Below, in pieces: positions 1,086-57,144 of a stretch of DNA of 64,000 nt. The stretch lies in contig CALUTP010000041.1 in NCBI GenBank assembly GCA_944323725.1, positions 62,001 through 126,000 of the forward strand, read 5' to 3'. The notes under the pieces are model-generated. The model did no database searches. It saw only the letters and a program-made list of their open reading frames with translations, and was not told the DNA's origin. The DNA is from Candidatus Gastranaerophilales bacterium. Lineage in GTDB: Bacteria; Cyanobacteriota; Vampirovibrionia; Gastranaerophilales; Gastranaerophilaceae. Each line of letters begins with the position of its first letter. Position 1 is the stretch's first letter. Position numbers and translations under genes: made by a program.

Positions 1086-2633
1086 TTATTTTATAGGAAA
1101 ACTATTTAACACAAGAACTTGAATTTCACCCGGTTCTAATCTTACCGACATTTTGCCTTTGCTAGAGATTGGTGTAGTCATTGTTTTTATAACAATAACA
1201 TCTTCACTACCTTTAAAACCTGGTATTTTCACATCTGCTTCGTTATCCGAAGTGAAATTCATATTGCCTATAACAATAAAAGATTCCTTTGTATCACTTA
1301 CAGCATATGCAAAAACAGATGGATTATTAGTCTTCAACTGGATAAATTTACCTTTTGAATTTAATGTTGAAGCATATTTTTTAAACTGATTTGCGAGTTT
1401 GAAATCAGCACTTAATTCTTTATCCCCTCCTCCTGGACGTCTTGAAAAATTAAATATATCAATCTTACCACGATGTGCAAAGTAATACTCATCATCAGTA
1501 AAAGTTTTTGGAGCTTTTTTATTCGCCCAGAAATAAATATAATTATCCCCAGTATCAAAACCGTCTACATAATACGCATTAATAGGCAGTGTAGAATTAA
1601 GCCACATAATCATTTCACTATATTTTTTACCATTAATAAGTACAGGACTTAATTCATCATGGGTGGTAAAACTACCTATAACACTTTTTGACTGACCTAA
1701 TTTTTTAGTTAAAGAACGGTCTAAATTTAACTGATTAAAAAGTTCCTTAGAAGTTTTCCAATCTTTCATATTAAAGTAGCTTCCATAATATCCATCAAAT
1801 CCAGCCTGTAAAAGTTTATCATATGGCGTATATACAGCATATTCAGATACTGGATCTTTCCAAGAATTAGAAGATTCGGCAAGCCATAAAAATTGAGGAT
1901 CTCTTTTTCTAGAATATTCTATTAACTCTTTCCAGAATTTTGCTGGTTTACAATGAGCAACATCAGCTCTAATTCCATCAACTCCTAAATCCATCATATA
2001 ATCGACGAATTCTTTATATAAATTCAAAACATCTTTATTAATCTGTACCTCATTACCAGCATTTAAAAGTCTGACATCAGTCCAATCCGCAGGGATAACA
2101 GCTTTGCCAGACTTATCTTTTACAAAAAGCTCCGGTCTTTGCATAAATAAATCATATGAACCGCAAGCCGGCACATCGACAATTACAGCAATTCCTCTAT
2201 CATGAGCTTCTTGGATAAATTTTCTTGCCTGCTCTTCAATAGTAAGCATAGTCTTATCGCTTTTTAATTGAGGATTCAGTGAATTAAAACTAGATGCAGC
2301 ATATAAAGAACCTGCAGTACCGAGAGCTTTCATTTTACCAACAGGAGTAATAGGTAAAATATGTATTGCATTAACTCCCTTTGCCTGAAGCTCATCCAAA
2401 TTAGCTATAGCATTAAGAAAATTTCCACTTTCCTCACCCTCATCAAAATCAATAATTCCATTTCCATTAGAATCTTGAGCATTAAAAGTTCTAATATTTA
2501 TTTCATAAATTATTGCAGAATTACTCAAGAACTTGCTGCGCAAATCATTTACATGGACTGGAGCGGTCAACCCAGCCGAAGAAACACAGAATGCAATTGA
2601 TAATGCTATAATTAATTTTTTCATGTTATTCAT
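1086..2633 (-). CDS. Secreted alpha-amylase family (GH13) glycosidase
   Basis: Glycoside hydrolase of the GH13 clan, expected to act on alpha-glucans outside the cytoplasm. The start is placed at ATG 2633 because an AGGG ribosome site lies just upstream and the next residues (MNNMKKLIIALSIAFCVSSA) form a signal peptide; a longer frame would run into lipA. The catalytic triad is visible with this start: nucleophile Asp about 224 in GVDGIRADVAH, acid/base Glu about 253 in FLWLAESS, and transition-state Asp about 326 in FTTHDE. Conserved region I is unusual: DVPACGS instead of the common DxVxNH. In region IV the Asn of NHD is Thr. Exact substrate cannot be told. The gene lies 64 nt downstream of lipA on the same strand. 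Confidence 0.85.
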   Translation of the reverse strand: MNNMKKLIIALSIAFCVSSAGLTAPVHVNDLRSKFLSNSAIIYEINIRTFNAQDSNGNGIIDFDEGEESGNFLNAIANLDELQAKGVNAIHILPITPVGKMKALGTAGSLYAASSFNSLNPQLKSDKTMLTIEEQARKFIQEAHDRGIAVIVDVPACGSYDLFMQRPELFVKDKSGKAVIPADWTDVRLLNAGNEVQINKDVLNLYKEFVDYMMDLGVDGIRADVAHCKPAKFWKELIEYSRKRDPQFLWLAESSNSWKDPVSEYAVYTPYDKLLQAGFDGYYGSYFNMKDWKTSKELFNQLNLDRSLTKKLGQSKSVIGSFTTHDELSPVLINGKKYSEMIMWLNSTLPINAYYVDGFDTGDNYIYFWANKKAPKTFTDDEYYFAHRGKIDIFNFSRRPGGGDKELSADFKLANQFKKYASTLNSKGKFIQLKTNNPSVFAYAVSDTKESFIVIGNMNFTSDNEADVKIPGFKGSEDVIVIKTMTTPISSKGKMSVRLEPGEIQVLVLNSFPIK

Positions 2634-2697
2634 TTTCCCTAATCCCCTATTATAAATTATGCTATCAAATAAAATTGTATTTTGCAAATTATTAAAG

Positions 2698-3540
2698 CTA
2701 TACAAGTTCTGCTGCCCGATAAGAACTTCTTACAAGCGGGCCTATTTGATAATTTTTAATCCCGCAATTTTTTGCAATTTCTTTTAAATTTTCAAACTCA
2801 TCTAGACTGTAATATTTTTCAACAGCCATATGGGCTTTTGATGGTTGGATGTACTGCCCCGCAGTTATAATATCGCACCCTGCATTTTTTAAATCATTAA
2901 ACGTTTCTTCAATTTGAGTAAAGCTTTCACCCAATCCTACCATCAAACCAGATTTTGTAATAATAGAACTATTATCTTTGATATATTTTAAAACACCTAA
3001 TGAAATATCATAATTTCCCTGAGGTCTTGCATACTTAAATATACTTCTAACAGTTTCTATATTATGATTAAATACATCCGGAGCGGAATTTATAATTATA
3101 TCAAGAGCTTTTTTATCTCCCTTGAAATCAGGGGTAAGAATTTCTATTTTAACATCTTTAGAGAGTTTTCTTATTTCTTCGATACATCGTGCGAAATGCG
3201 AAGCCCCGCCATCAGGCAAGTCATCACGTGTAACTGATGTAATGACCGCATACTTTAACCCCAAATCTTTCACAGCCTCTGCAAGATGAATAGGTTCATT
3301 TTCATCAATTAATTCAGGACGACTACAGCCAATATTGCAATAACGGCAGTTTCTTGTGCAAGTATTTCCCATAATCAAGAATGTTGCAGTATTTTTAGTA
3401 TAACATTCATTCTTATTAGGACACCGAGCATTTTCACACACCGTATTCAAGCATCTATTTTTTAGAATTCTTCTTACTTTTTTTGTTGAATCAGTATCTA
3501 TAATCGGACGTTTTAAATATTCTGGCAGTCTTTCTCTCAT
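2698..3540 (-). CDS. lipA: Lipoyl synthase
   Basis: Radical SAM enzyme that inserts two sulfurs into protein-bound octanoyl groups to make lipoate. Both iron-sulfur motifs are present: the auxiliary cluster C35-x4-C40-x5-C46 and the radical SAM C61-x3-C65-x2-C68, plus the C-terminal RSSY (about 271-274) that supplies the serine ligand. Length of 280 residues is normal. A TATAAT box ends 6 nt before ATG with no Shine-Dalgarno sequence, so the mRNA is probably leaderless. Together with the LipM-like transferase at 53045 it would complete the octanoyl-to-lipoyl route, and the dihydrolipoyl dehydrogenase at 3995 would use the product. Confidence 0.95.
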   Translation of the reverse strand: MRERLPEYLKRPIIDTDSTKKVRRILKNRCLNTVCENARCPNKNECYTKNTATFLIMGNTCTRNCRYCNIGCSRPELIDENEPIHLAEAVKDLGLKYAVITSVTRDDLPDGGASHFARCIEEIRKLSKDVKIEILTPDFKGDKKALDIIINSAPDVFNHNIETVRSIFKYARPQGNYDISLGVLKYIKDNSSIITKSGLMVGLGESFTQIEETFNDLKNAGCDIITAGQYIQPSKAHMAVEKYYSLDEFENLKEIAKNCGIKNYQIGPLVRSSYRAAELV

Positions 3541-3673: not shown

Positions 3674-3994
3674 ATGAAAAAATTAGCAATGATTTTATGT
3701 CTGCTTACTTTTACACCGGCTGTATTAGCCTCAGAAATCCCAAATTATGATGTGGATTCTGTAACTAATACAAGCGACTCATTATATACCGAACAATCAT
3801 TCTCTGAAAAATTACAGACAACTACAAAACAAGAAGGATTAAATATTACCCCTGAAAAGACAACTACATATGAAAGAAAAATCAACATAAGACCTAAAAA
3901 ACAAATGGATACACACAAATATTGGGATCACGGTGGCGTAAAATTCGGCACTGGCGGAGCATTTAAAAATGGGTCTTCCCTAAACAGCTGGTAA
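3674..3994 (+). CDS. Small exported hypothetical protein
   Basis: 106 residues with a clear signal peptide (MKKLAMILCLLTFTPAVLAS, cleavage probably after VLAS). The AAGGAG ribosome site sits 8 nt before ATG and a sigma-70 type promoter precedes it. The mature part is polar, Thr/Lys/Glu-rich, and ends in a Gly/Lys/Phe segment (GGVKFGTGGAFKNG). No family recognised. The stop abuts the stop of the convergent lpd gene (3994/3995) with no room for a separate terminator. Confidence 0.75.
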   Translation: MKKLAMILCLLTFTPAVLASEIPNYDVDSVTNTSDSLYTEQSFSEKLQTTTKQEGLNITPEKTTTYERKINIRPKKQMDTHKYWDHGGVKFGTGGAFKNGSSLNSW

Positions 3995-5233
3995 TCAGAG
4001 TTTAAATAAACTTTCAAATATTCCTTCTGAATAAGTAGGATGCGCAAAACATATCTCTTTCAGTTTACTGACAGAAATATTGTTTTGCATTGCAATAAGA
4101 ACTTGTTGAATCATAGCAGAAGCTTCTTTTGAAACAATATGAGCTCCTATAATTTTGTCATTATTTGATAATATTTTTATAAATCCATCAGTAGAATTAT
4201 CACAATGTGATTTACCCAAAGCAGAAATAAGCATCAAAGATTTGTTATAAGTCCCTTCTTCCAAATCCTGTTCCCTTTTACCAACCCAAGCAATTTCAGG
4301 ATTTCCATACACGACCGAAGGTACGAGATTTTCATTAAAAGGAACTCCCTCAACATAAGATAAAGCCTGTTTGATAGCAAAATGAGCAAGTTGAATTGAA
4401 CCGCACATATCACCTAAATAAGTGACTCCCTCCATTTTTTTAATACAATTTGGAACCCTTCCGGCAGCAACAAAAACATATTCCGGTTGTAAGACTTCCC
4501 CATTAGTCAAGTATACATTTTTATCTTCTATTTTTTGGATACTAGTTGATTTGTAAGTCTTTATCTTTTTTGTTTTGAATATTCTTTCTATTCGTTTTGA
4601 AACCTCAATATCCGCTAAAGGAAGCAAATTATCCGCCATTTCAACAACAGTTACTTCTACTCCAAAAGCTGAAAAAATTCTTGCCCATTCAGTACCAATA
4701 GCACCAGAACCCACAATTAAAATATTTTTAGGAAGCTGCTCTAGACTCAAAATATCATCAGAACTTAAAATAAATTTGCCATCAAATTCTAACCCTTTAA
4801 TTTTTTTAGGGGAAGAACCACATGCAGTAATTATATTTTTACAAAAATAGACTTCGCCATCAGCAATAATCTCATTTGCTGATTTTATTTCAGCTTCTGC
4901 TATAACTGTCACTATACCGCTATTTTTTATAGAAAGCTCCAACGCTTTACGTAATTTCTCCACTATTTTATTTTTATGTTGGATAACTGCAGAATAATTT
5001 ACTGAAAGAACTTCACAATTAAGCCCAAGTTCTTGAGCACACTTCATTTCTTCATACAGTTCCGCAGAATGCAAAATTGCTTTTGTTGGAATGCAACCTC
5101 GATTAAGGCATACTCCACCAATGCAATCTTTTTCAAATATAACAACTTTCAACCCCCTAGAAACGGCATGCAATGCTGCGGTATATCCTGCTGGGCCTGC
5201 ACCAACTATTCCAAGGTCAAAATTTTCAATCAT
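3995..5233 (-). CDS. lpd: Dihydrolipoyl dehydrogenase, shortened form
   Basis: FAD-dependent pyridine nucleotide-disulfide oxidoreductase that reoxidises dihydrolipoyl groups of 2-oxoacid dehydrogenase or glycine cleavage complexes. Visible: the FAD motif GAGPAG (11-16), the redox disulfide GGVCLNRGCIPTK (C42, C47), a second Rossmann motif VGSGAIG for NAD, and the C-terminal catalytic HPTYSE (H398, E403). At 412 residues it is about 50 shorter than usual. Much of the loss lies between AAGRVPN and the second FAD motif GD, where about 16 residues replace about 40. The frame is uninterrupted, so this is a compact variant, not a frameshift. It could be a related disulfide reductase, but the Lpd-type active site favours this call. 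The nearby lipA supports a lipoate link. Confidence 0.8.
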   Translation of the reverse strand: MIENFDLGIVGAGPAGYTAALHAVSRGLKVVIFEKDCIGGVCLNRGCIPTKAILHSAELYEEMKCAQELGLNCEVLSVNYSAVIQHKNKIVEKLRKALELSIKNSGIVTVIAEAEIKSANEIIADGEVYFCKNIITACGSSPKKIKGLEFDGKFILSSDDILSLEQLPKNILIVGSGAIGTEWARIFSAFGVEVTVVEMADNLLPLADIEVSKRIERIFKTKKIKTYKSTSIQKIEDKNVYLTNGEVLQPEYVFVAAGRVPNCIKKMEGVTYLGDMCGSIQLAHFAIKQALSYVEGVPFNENLVPSVVYGNPEIAWVGKREQDLEEGTYNKSLMLISALGKSHCDNSTDGFIKILSNNDKIIGAHIVSKEASAMIQQVLIAMQNNISVSKLKEICFAHPTYSEGIFESLFKL

Positions 5234-6502: not shown

Positions 6503-7673
6503 TCAATCACCCAAACACACCGCCTGAAGGTCACTGGAGTCGCGACTGTAGTTGTACCAGAGCGTGTACGTGGAGTAGAAGGTACGGAAGTATGCGGTGT
6601 CGCTAGTGCACTCCTCACCAGACCACAAGTAGAAGGTAGGTTCAGGTAAGCCTAAAGAGGTTGCAGTTCCAGCTATGTAAGTCAGGTTGCTCACATTCTG
6701 TTCTGCTCCTACACTTGGATTGCCTTTGTATATTGCACTCGCTATCTTTGCTAAGTCATTGGAAGTCGGCATGTTCTTTACTCCGCCACAGTGTTTTACT
6801 GCGCCCGCCCAGTAATCATTGGCAACGTAACAGTGTTTTATTCCCAATTCGCCTTTTTGTGCCATACATTCGTCATATGTTAACGGCGTTGGTGAGAATA
6901 CAGAGCCAAAGCATTTGCCTCCGTCAAGTTCTACGGCACAACTGCTCCCCAAACCATTCGCATTAAACAGAGCTACATCATCATTCTGTTTGTTTGGACG
7001 TTTTTTACCGTTTATCTCAAATACTGCTGCGACACAGCTCGCTGTCGCATTGGATACCGGCTTGTTATCTTCTGTACTCCACGTGTAACTTTTTACAGGG
7101 TCCAGGGCTTCGCATTTTGTGTTATAAGATAGTATCATTGGTGTTCCATCACCTGTTATTATCCCCACATTAGGGCTGCTATAGTCTGCTGTGTCACTGT
7201 CTTCCATTTTCAAGTGTTTTCCTGTTTGCGTTTTAGATATTTCCCACTCTTTTCCGTCTAATAGTGTTACTGTGTCATATGGCCAGCAGTCACGAAGGTT
7301 CGATGAGGTACATACTTTCGCAATCTTTAAATGTTTCTGAAGTTCAGCTACAAATGCTGCAGTACTATCATATGGGCCTATTAGCCCCTGTGCTGCCATC
7401 TTCTCCGTTGCTTTCGTAAACTTATACTTCACTGTTCGTATCTGTTCTGCGCGCACCTTTTTATTTATCGCTGCGTTCAACGTCGGAAGCGTGATGGCTG
7501 CCACTACGCCTATTATGCCCAGGGTTATCAACACCTCGGCTAGGGTAAAGCCTCGTTTAATGGTTCTTCTTCCGGCGGCGCGAAATGGCTCGTTGCCTGC
7601 ACCAATACCGGATAAGGAGCTTAAACTACTTTGCCCCCCCCCCGGAAACTCTTGTCATCACTATGTTTTCCAT
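6503..7673 (-). CDS. Type IV prepilin-like protein, frameshifted (OFF) in a G10 tract
   Basis: Surface-fibre subunit or pseudopilin. The gene starts at ATG 7673 behind AAGGAG (7 nt). The first codons read MENIVMTRVSGGG and then stop at once (GGGAK*) because the tract has ten G. Removing one G gives an open frame of 389 residues: a 41-residue leader containing GGGQSSLSS, cleavage after Gly41, then the N-methylation segment FTLAEVLITLGIIGVVAA with Glu at +5. The rest is Cys-rich; the C-terminal ~130 residues (GGVKNMPTSNDL, FYLWSGEEC, QAVCLGD) look like a C-type-lectin/FISUMP-like fold. The body is much richer in G+C than its neighbours, with GC-ending codons, suggesting transfer or special mutation. 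Either this is a phase-OFF gene or the tract length is a sequencing error. Confidence 0.8.
6530..6610 (-). other. Candidate DGR-type variable region
   Basis: In the 27 codons encoding C-T-S-D-T-A-Y-F-R to D-S-S-D, 19 end in C and most are Tyr, Ser, Thr, Asp, Phe or Asn codons (TAC, TCC, ACC, GAC, TTC, AAC). This is the pattern left when AAC codons of a template are changed at their A positions. It lies at the very end of a C-type-lectin-like domain, the usual place for variable regions of diversity-generating retroelements. No reverse transcriptase or template repeat is in this window. Confidence 0.45.
7614..7643 (-). repeat. 30-bp repeat shared with the prepilin gene at 56314
   Basis: These 30 bases, comprising the poly-G tract and the next 20 bases of the leader, are identical to 57086-57115. 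The two genes differ widely outside the leader and the N-methylation segment. Confidence 0.9.
7634..7643 (-). repeat. G10 homopolymer, slipped-strand switch
   Basis: Ten G (minus strand) inside the leader codons of the prepilin gene. Nine would keep the frame open; ten close it after 15 residues. A homopolymer of this length is exceptional in this AT-rich sequence and is repeated only in the second prepilin. Confidence 0.8.
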
Positions 7674-7764
7674 ACTTAATCTCCTTTGTTTCTAGCTTTG
7701 ATTTTATTTATTTATTAAAGTAAATATATTTGTGTTCGAGGTCACACTCTCACCCTGCTTTTTT

Positions 7765-56313: not shown

Positions 56314-57144
56314 TTACCAAGGATAATCATCTTTTATTTGCCACCCATCTATTTGAATCAATGCAGAACAAAAATCTCCTTGATTATAACCAGTTGAAGA
56401 TATAGCATCTTTATTACAGCCACCTTGAACTGTAGACATCAGATATTCTCGAGTTTTCATAAAACTTGAATTATTTACACCAGAATTATTAGCTCCAGTA
56501 ACTCCTGTTAAAAATATATACTTATCACCTTTATCTGGCCTCATGGAAAATGCAAATACATCTTTTCCTATAGTTGTTGAACCCTTTGGACCATTAATAT
56601 CTACATATATTTTAGCAAAAGGCGCAGCCCCTGCACCCCATCCTAAACGAATAAGAATACCCATACCATTTGCTAAAATTAATCCCCTATAACCAGTATT
56701 AAAATTCTCAACAGTACCATCTAAAACATGAAGTTTATTTTTTTCATTATTATCTTCATAATAGCAAAATAAAGGAGGACCAGATCTTCCACAATCTTTA
56801 ATTACCTTCATGTATGGAATTAAGTATTTATCTGGAAAATCATTTCTATTATCAAAATCCCAATAAGCAGGCTCACCATTTTCAGCTTGAGATCGTATAA
56901 TAACCTGATACAATTCTGTATATGCCTTTTTTATACCGGTAATCGCAGCTTTTTTTTCGTTTTTCTGAATAAGTTGAGGCAATGTAAGAGCTGCTACTAT
57001 TCCAATTATTGCTACTGTTACTAGCACTTCAGCTAAAGTAAAGGCATTATTTTTAAAATTCTTTAAAAATGATTCAGTGCCTGGAAAGGAGCTTAAACTA
57101 CTTTGCCCCCCCCCCGAAAACCTTGCTATTACTGTATTTTGCAT
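56314..57144 (-). CDS. Type IV prepilin-like protein, poly-G leader in frame (ON)
   Basis: 276 residues. The leader MQNTVIARFSGGGQSSLSSF contains ten G in frame (TCG GGG GGG GGG CAA). Cleavage is probably after Ala34, then FTLAEVLVTVAIIGIVAALT with Glu at +5 and the pilin helix, followed by KKAAITGIKKAYTELYQ and a C-terminal globular domain with Cys pairs (DCGRSGPPLFCYY, GGCNKDAIS, DFCSAL) and Gly-rich loops. AAGGAG 8 nt before ATG and a strong promoter. Differs from the prepilin at 6503 beyond the leader and pilin helix and lacks the lectin-like end. Probably a minor pilin or pseudopilin. Confidence 0.85.
   Translation of the reverse strand: MQNTVIARFSGGGQSSLSSFPGTESFLKNFKNNAFTLAEVLVTVAIIGIVAALTLPQLIQKNEKKAAITGIKKAYTELYQVIIRSQAENGEPAYWDFDNRNDFPDKYLIPYMKVIKDCGRSGPPLFCYYEDNNEKNKLHVLDGTVENFNTGYRGLILANGMGILIRLGWGAGAAPFAKIYVDINGPKGSTTIGKDVFAFSMRPDKGDKYIFLTGVTGANNSGVNNSSFMKTREYLMSTVQGGCNKDAISSTGYNQGDFCSALIQIDGWQIKDDYPW
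57086..57115 (-). repeat. 30-bp repeat with G10 tract
   Basis: Identical to 7614-7643. The tract itself is 57106-57115 and is in frame here because the preceding codon (TCG) uses one G. Confidence 0.9.

Follow-up and report, generated by a model that had tools for sequence, protein, structure and literature searches.

The window analysed here is a stretch of 64,000 nucleotides from the genome of a Candidatus Gastranaerophilales bacterium (G000; 1.91 Mb, 99% complete), and it carries on its minus strand a prepilin gene whose reading frame is set by a homopolymer (Table 1). Positions 7634-7643 read as ten C on the plus strand and as ten G on the coding strand, and the tract is situated ten codons past the ATG at 7673. 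With ten G the frame closes at a TAG (7626-7628) after 15 codons; with nine G it remains open for 389 residues and runs through FTLAEVL. The segment directly behind the tract, CAAAGTAGTTTAAGC, provides a stop in each of the OFF frames, this TAG in one and a TAA (7621-7623) in the other. A first-pass annotation, made without any comparison, had described the ribosome site, the ATG, the ten-G frameshift and the stop after 15 codons, all of which proved to be exact, and its claim that nine G would yield a 389-residue prepilin with FTLAEVL held as well, on the frames and on the Pfam match given below.

The read-through protein matches the Pfam N_methyl family (PF07963, E=7e-6) and passes the signal test for a class III prepilin, that is G/A-FTLAE with a hydrophobic helix. 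A PDB search with the profile of its family returned the N-termini of type IV pilins as best matches, which are weak (E 0.01). For the variable C-terminal end of the protein no Pfam family was found, and a single-sequence fold was unusable (mean pLDDT 40). Internal re-initiation behind the tract was considered and rejected, because no in-frame ATG, GTG or TTG occurs between the tract and FTLAEVL. The GC content of the gene is 46% vs 32% for the window, and it departs from that of the neighbouring genes alr and glyA; acquisition of the gene from another lineage is possible.

Table 1. Coordinates of the G-run prepilin loci of the window and of the related elements discussed in the text
Feature	Position	Strand	Remark
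Ribosome binding site AAAGGAG of the leader	7681..7687	-	Read directly from the sequence
Leader codons 1-10, MENIVMTRVS	7644..7673	-	ATG at 7673
Ten-G run	7634..7643	-	ON length 9 (or 12), present copy OFF
CAAAGTAGTTTAAGC behind the ten-G run	7619..7633	-	QSSLS in the ON frame; stops in both OFF frames
Prepilin gene, 389 residues in the ON frame	6503..7673	-	Stop at 6503
FTLAEVL, class III (N-methylation) prepilin signal	7529..7549	-	PF07963
Hypervariable C-terminal stretch (FYLWSGEE...QAVCLGD)	6506..6638	-	Shares homology with the variable repeat of the G002 retroelement target
Second ten-G run, ON frame	57106..57115	-	GGGGGGGGGGCAAAGTAGTTTAAGCTCCTT context as at 7634-7643
Second G-run prepilin gene, 276 residues	56314..57144	-	In frame (ON) as assembled; PF07963
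Type B loci, own genome	L031, L038, L045, L046, L049 (two), L052, L055, L064, L043		Leader peptide, intrinsic terminator, separate prepilin gene
Retroelement of G002	L468 (G002:C22) 1179-2306, 2427-3521, 3979-4115, 4186-4578		

The window also holds a second tract of this kind. Both tracts lie within an identical 30-nt stretch, GGGGGGGGGGCAAAGTAGTTTAAGCTCCTT, and the prepilins that they precede are otherwise different. A G8 pattern gives six overlapping matches in the window (the two ten-base runs), while 0.23 are found in shuffles. This second tract had been missed by the first-pass annotation, as had the genome-wide and order-wide system and the membership of the window gene in a family diversified by a retroelement, which are described below.

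According to our analysis, the genome contains 40 separate G/C runs of at least 10 bases, against ~0.05-0.1 expected from base or trinucleotide composition. Most of the G-runs are found 8-20 codons past an ATG with a ribosome site, where one of the three lengths joins the prepilin frame, and most of them lie in leaders of mutually unrelated prepilins. About two dozen loci have the run in the leader of the prepilin itself, as the window gene does (type A); the rest comprise about ten loci of another design (type B) and a few other surface genes. The window locus meets the membership test of a coding homopolymer that is far above chance and stands in a frame-setting position. Non-pilin targets encode RgpF-like, GT-D-like and LysM proteins in this genome and GT6-like and AlgX-like proteins in its relatives; these non-pilin loci (L034, L035, L039, L041, and L288, L258, L284 in G008) also include a membrane protein and a very long repeat protein. 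A search confined to type IV pilus ATPases gave four matches over the cut-off in the genome, which thereby passes the test for pilus assembly machinery, and from these together with the signal motif we infer that the encoded proteins are surface pilins, without data on expression or phenotype. Loss of mismatch repair was rejected as a cause of tract mutability, because MutS is present in the genome.

The comparative set consisted of consensus assemblies, one genome per species. A scan of the order for G9 followed by FTL[AS]EV at a distance of 8-38 nt found the pattern in 57 of 286 genomes, belonging to 10 of 50 genera, and the reversed pattern, taken as a control, was absent from every genome. 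In some genera poly-C tracts do the job of poly-G. Prepilin leaders of G059 (L303, L307 and L313, for instance) carry poly-C in the coding strand with n=10, the ON length being 11.

The lengths of these tracts differ between close copies. Tandem paralogues with identical leaders (L062) have G12 and G10, and a prepilin locus compared between two species (L252/L384) is OFF with G11 in one and ON with G12 in the other, its flanks being 98% and 95% identical. A membrane-protein gene (L041/L404) has 13 vs 14 G, with three substitutions and no indel in the 700 nt downstream; its 488-residue frame is open at 13 G, and the relative with 14 G loses it. The GT-D-like gene, followed through three species (L039/L386/L294), has 13 G in the species of the window, 12 in the next, and a shortened, A-interrupted run (8 G plus AGG) in the last. 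Such change is not universal, since some pairs of loci keep the same length. A second membership test, that length should differ while the flanks hold, is thus met between paralogues and between sister species, not between strains of one species.

Behind the tracts the frames are intact and under constraint. Compared with its G-run homologues, the window protein gives a dN/dS of about 0.09, with dS saturated, and ten homologues, nine of them of about 350 residues, all have open frames; the window protein is under purifying selection. Homologues from G003 and from G012 lack the tract, and their start lies just in front of the FTLAEVL signal; the tract-bearing leader is therefore a module that may be present or absent.

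Selection may also act on the switch. Stops in both OFF frames within 24 nt of the tract occur in 79% of the loci of the genome, in 76% of those in a sister species and in 67% of a set with one locus per genome, the last being the fairest because loci of one genus share leader ancestry. Synonymous recoding, used as a control, gave 24-30%, and the observed level was reached in none of 300 simulations; G059 is an exception, where only the second of two measures was significant. Type A loci are rarely ON, in 15 of 141 cases (p=5e-10 against one third). When OFF, they depart from the ON length in a direction specific to the genus: one G too many in the window's own genus (14 of 19 loci in the genome, 22 of 25 in a sister species), and in other genera one G too few (29 of 39), mostly with n=10. 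This holds irrespective of the tract length and the ON length, of leader phase and of poly-G vs poly-C. The scarcity of ON copies and the lineage-specific offset are not predicted by free switching alone. It would be logical to suggest that selection keeps the majority OFF at one common slip from ON, which is a plausible inference only. As judged from sequence alone, the consistent one-base offset and the packing of the off-frame stops also suggest that selection acts on the switch as well as on the protein.

The type B loci have a different architecture, to which the window gene does not belong. Here a short leader ORF, 35 codons long in nine loci and 46 in one, contains the G-run and is separate from the pilin. 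Of the three frames of the leader, two stop 7-13 nt past the tract and the third ends inside, once behind, a terminator hairpin that begins about 42 nt past the tract; the prepilin comes 50-80 nt further on and has a ribosome site of its own. The hairpins have energies of -10 to -15 kcal/mol (z -2.5 to -5.2), and an Rfam search of the loci found no known RNA. A near-consensus promoter stands upstream of the leader in all seven loci with the prepilin in view, and no promoter is found between terminator and prepilin in six of these (L031, L038, L046, L049 twice, L055), L045 having a second one there. These six of the seven pass the test for an attenuator of the pil1 type. The copies are mostly one amplified cassette, and of the genomes scanned for the pattern only G000 and G004 contained it (G008 was not among them, although it has similar loci). 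A genus-wide attenuator had to be rejected: all copies in G008 and G004 have TTGAAA-16/17-TATAAT between the terminator and the pilin gene, and the model fails for these leaders because the promoter sits downstream of the terminator.

Homologues of the window prepilin are conserved apart from a hypervariable C-terminal end of some 40 residues. In a sister species (G002) one homologue, with an 11-G OFF leader, is the target prepilin of a complete diversity-generating retroelement, whose other parts are a reverse transcriptase (376 aa), an AAC-rich template repeat and a bAvd-type accessory protein (PF22296, E=3e-15). Between its variable repeat and the template, 20 of 48 adenines and 1 of 85 other bases differ. 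The adenine signature recurs in about eight further copies of the variable repeat in G002, at least two of which likewise belong to genes with G-run leaders. G002 is estimated to be 8% contaminated; the linkage of the element does not depend on binning, because reverse transcriptase, target, template and accessory gene are all on one contig. The end of the window gene differs from the G002 template at 16 of 34 adenines and at 8 of 55 other bases (Fisher p=0.001) and so meets, against that template, the test of an adenine-biased variable repeat. By homology, the window prepilin is a member of the family that such a retroelement diversifies in the sister species. Searches of the window's own genome (99% complete) found neither a reverse transcriptase nor a template repeat, so that it fails the corresponding test, and the variable end may be an orphan or the retroelement may be unassembled. 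A different retroelement target, apparently of a prophage, was seen in G012 (L482, G012:C6, 415-1870; template 1759-1870, variable repeat 1522-1633), with 15 of 16 mismatches at adenine.

We propose, as the likely explanation, that a large repertoire of prepilins, mostly OFF in the consensus, undergoes slipped-strand phase variation; the switching itself is inferred, without read-level data. The ten-G run would act as a replication-slippage switch on the window gene, such that a gain or loss of G shifts the leader into or out of the prepilin frame and translation in the wrong frames would end within 15-17 codons, at the stops directly behind the tract. This switch would be one of some 20-30 prepilin switches in the genome, and of hundreds in the order, each cell probably displaying a small random subset of pilins, and the consensus assembly would represent the majority OFF state, one base away from ON. 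The data show the tract, the frames, the repetition over the genome, the length differences and a constraint that bears on both the protein and the off-frame stops. We only infer a mixture of lengths within a population, display of the pilin by ON cells, and a role for it in adhesion or in evasion of immunity or phages. We incline, by a narrow margin, to a bolder reading, in which one pilin adhesin is diversified independently by a poly-G switch and by a retroelement-rewritten tip, amid 20-30 mostly OFF prepilins with fail-safe stops, a random few of them being made per cell.

The first-pass annotation had likewise read the locus as slipped-strand phase variation, and the comparative evidence supports this, with mixed lengths in the population remaining an inference only. 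It had proposed to compare tract lengths in related genomes, which do differ between paralogues and species, and had named, as one refutation, ten G throughout together with a degraded downstream frame in relatives; no such degradation appeared, the frames of the compared homologues being all open.

The main rival to phase variation, which we regard as unlikely, is programmed slippage, in which RNA polymerase or the ribosome slips at a set rate and gives a constant low expression from unchanged DNA. The strong bias of the OFF offset and its consistency within a genus are what such a mechanism would tend to produce, and some orthologues also keep their offset (L033/L271, L047/L273). However, near-identical copies differ in length and land in different frames, ON included, about 10% of the loci are in frame as assembled, and an OFF consensus one deletion away from ON is found as well in the pili of Bifidobacterium breve, where slippage of DNA was measured (PMC9187656). 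An error of sequencing or assembly, with a true tract of nine G and the gene on, is very unlikely. Homopolymers of 10 are error-prone, and the genome is fragmented, with contigs often ending at such loci; but assemblies of different origin from other genera show the opposite offset, and no single error can explain both directions. The packing of the off-frame stops and the differences in length from species to species also require that OFF states are real. A decaying pseudogene, for which the run would be a fixed frameshift in a dying gene, is also very unlikely, for although the gene is OFF as assembled and its genome lacks a reverse transcriptase or template for the variable end, its 389-residue frame and those of the ten homologues are open under the low dN/dS given above.

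If our reading is true, non-photosynthetic gut cyanobacteria rely heavily on poly-G phase variation, with type IV-like pilins as its targets, and this would account for the many prepilins of the lineage that appear broken in assemblies. The G002 locus would then unite phase variation, here inferred, with retroelement mutagenesis in one gene. In the literature searched, with partial coverage, no paper was found to join the Gastranaerophilales lineage and phase variation, in agreement with the first-pass remark that no description in the presumed lineage was known to it, and none to join retroelement, pilin and homopolymer. Novelty is not proven by this, because the coverage is partial and we have only an absence of finds. 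Poly-G phase variation of pili, leader-peptide attenuation and retroelement-varied pilins are each known separately elsewhere; their joint use on a large repertoire of type IV-like prepilins was not met in the papers searched.

The closest parallel is B. breve UCC2003, whose sortase-pilus G-tracts are OFF in the reference, with a productive event that is mostly the loss of one G, and whose ON cells are enriched in the mouse gut (PMC9187656). As there, the poly-G lies within a pilin gene, close to its start, in a gut commensal whose reference is OFF, and the predominant one-G loss matches the bias to one G too many in the genus of the window (PMC9187656). B. breve, however, is an actinobacterium with two sortase-pilus operons, whereas the present lineage belongs to the cyanobacterial phylum and carries 20-30 or so type IV-like prepilins per genome, their tracts being followed closely by stops in the wrong frames. 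Campylobacter, Helicobacter and Neisseria carry many poly-G/C tracts of ~8-13 in genes for surface structures and glycosyltransferases. Here, in contrast to them, a prepilin family is the dominant target and MutS is present, and switching is inferred without read-level or phenotypic data.

In Streptococcus gallolyticus pil1, expression is mostly low when the leader stop lies 28 nt or more upstream of the hairpin and high when it lies inside (PMC3894217). In our type B loci, as in pil1/pil3, the repeat length decides whether the leader stop falls far ahead of an intrinsic terminator that precedes the pilin or within that terminator (PMC3894217), and by this analogy an effect on expression may be inferred; type B differs in having poly-G and not GCAGA repeats, prepilins and not sortase pili, and one amplified cassette in one species. 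The diversity-generating retroelements of Bacteroides tip pilins (cited in PMC12632263) resemble that of G002 in that a C-terminal stretch of a pilin is varied at template adenines, and the G002 target differs from those tip pilins in being a type IV-like prepilin and in carrying a G-run switch as well.
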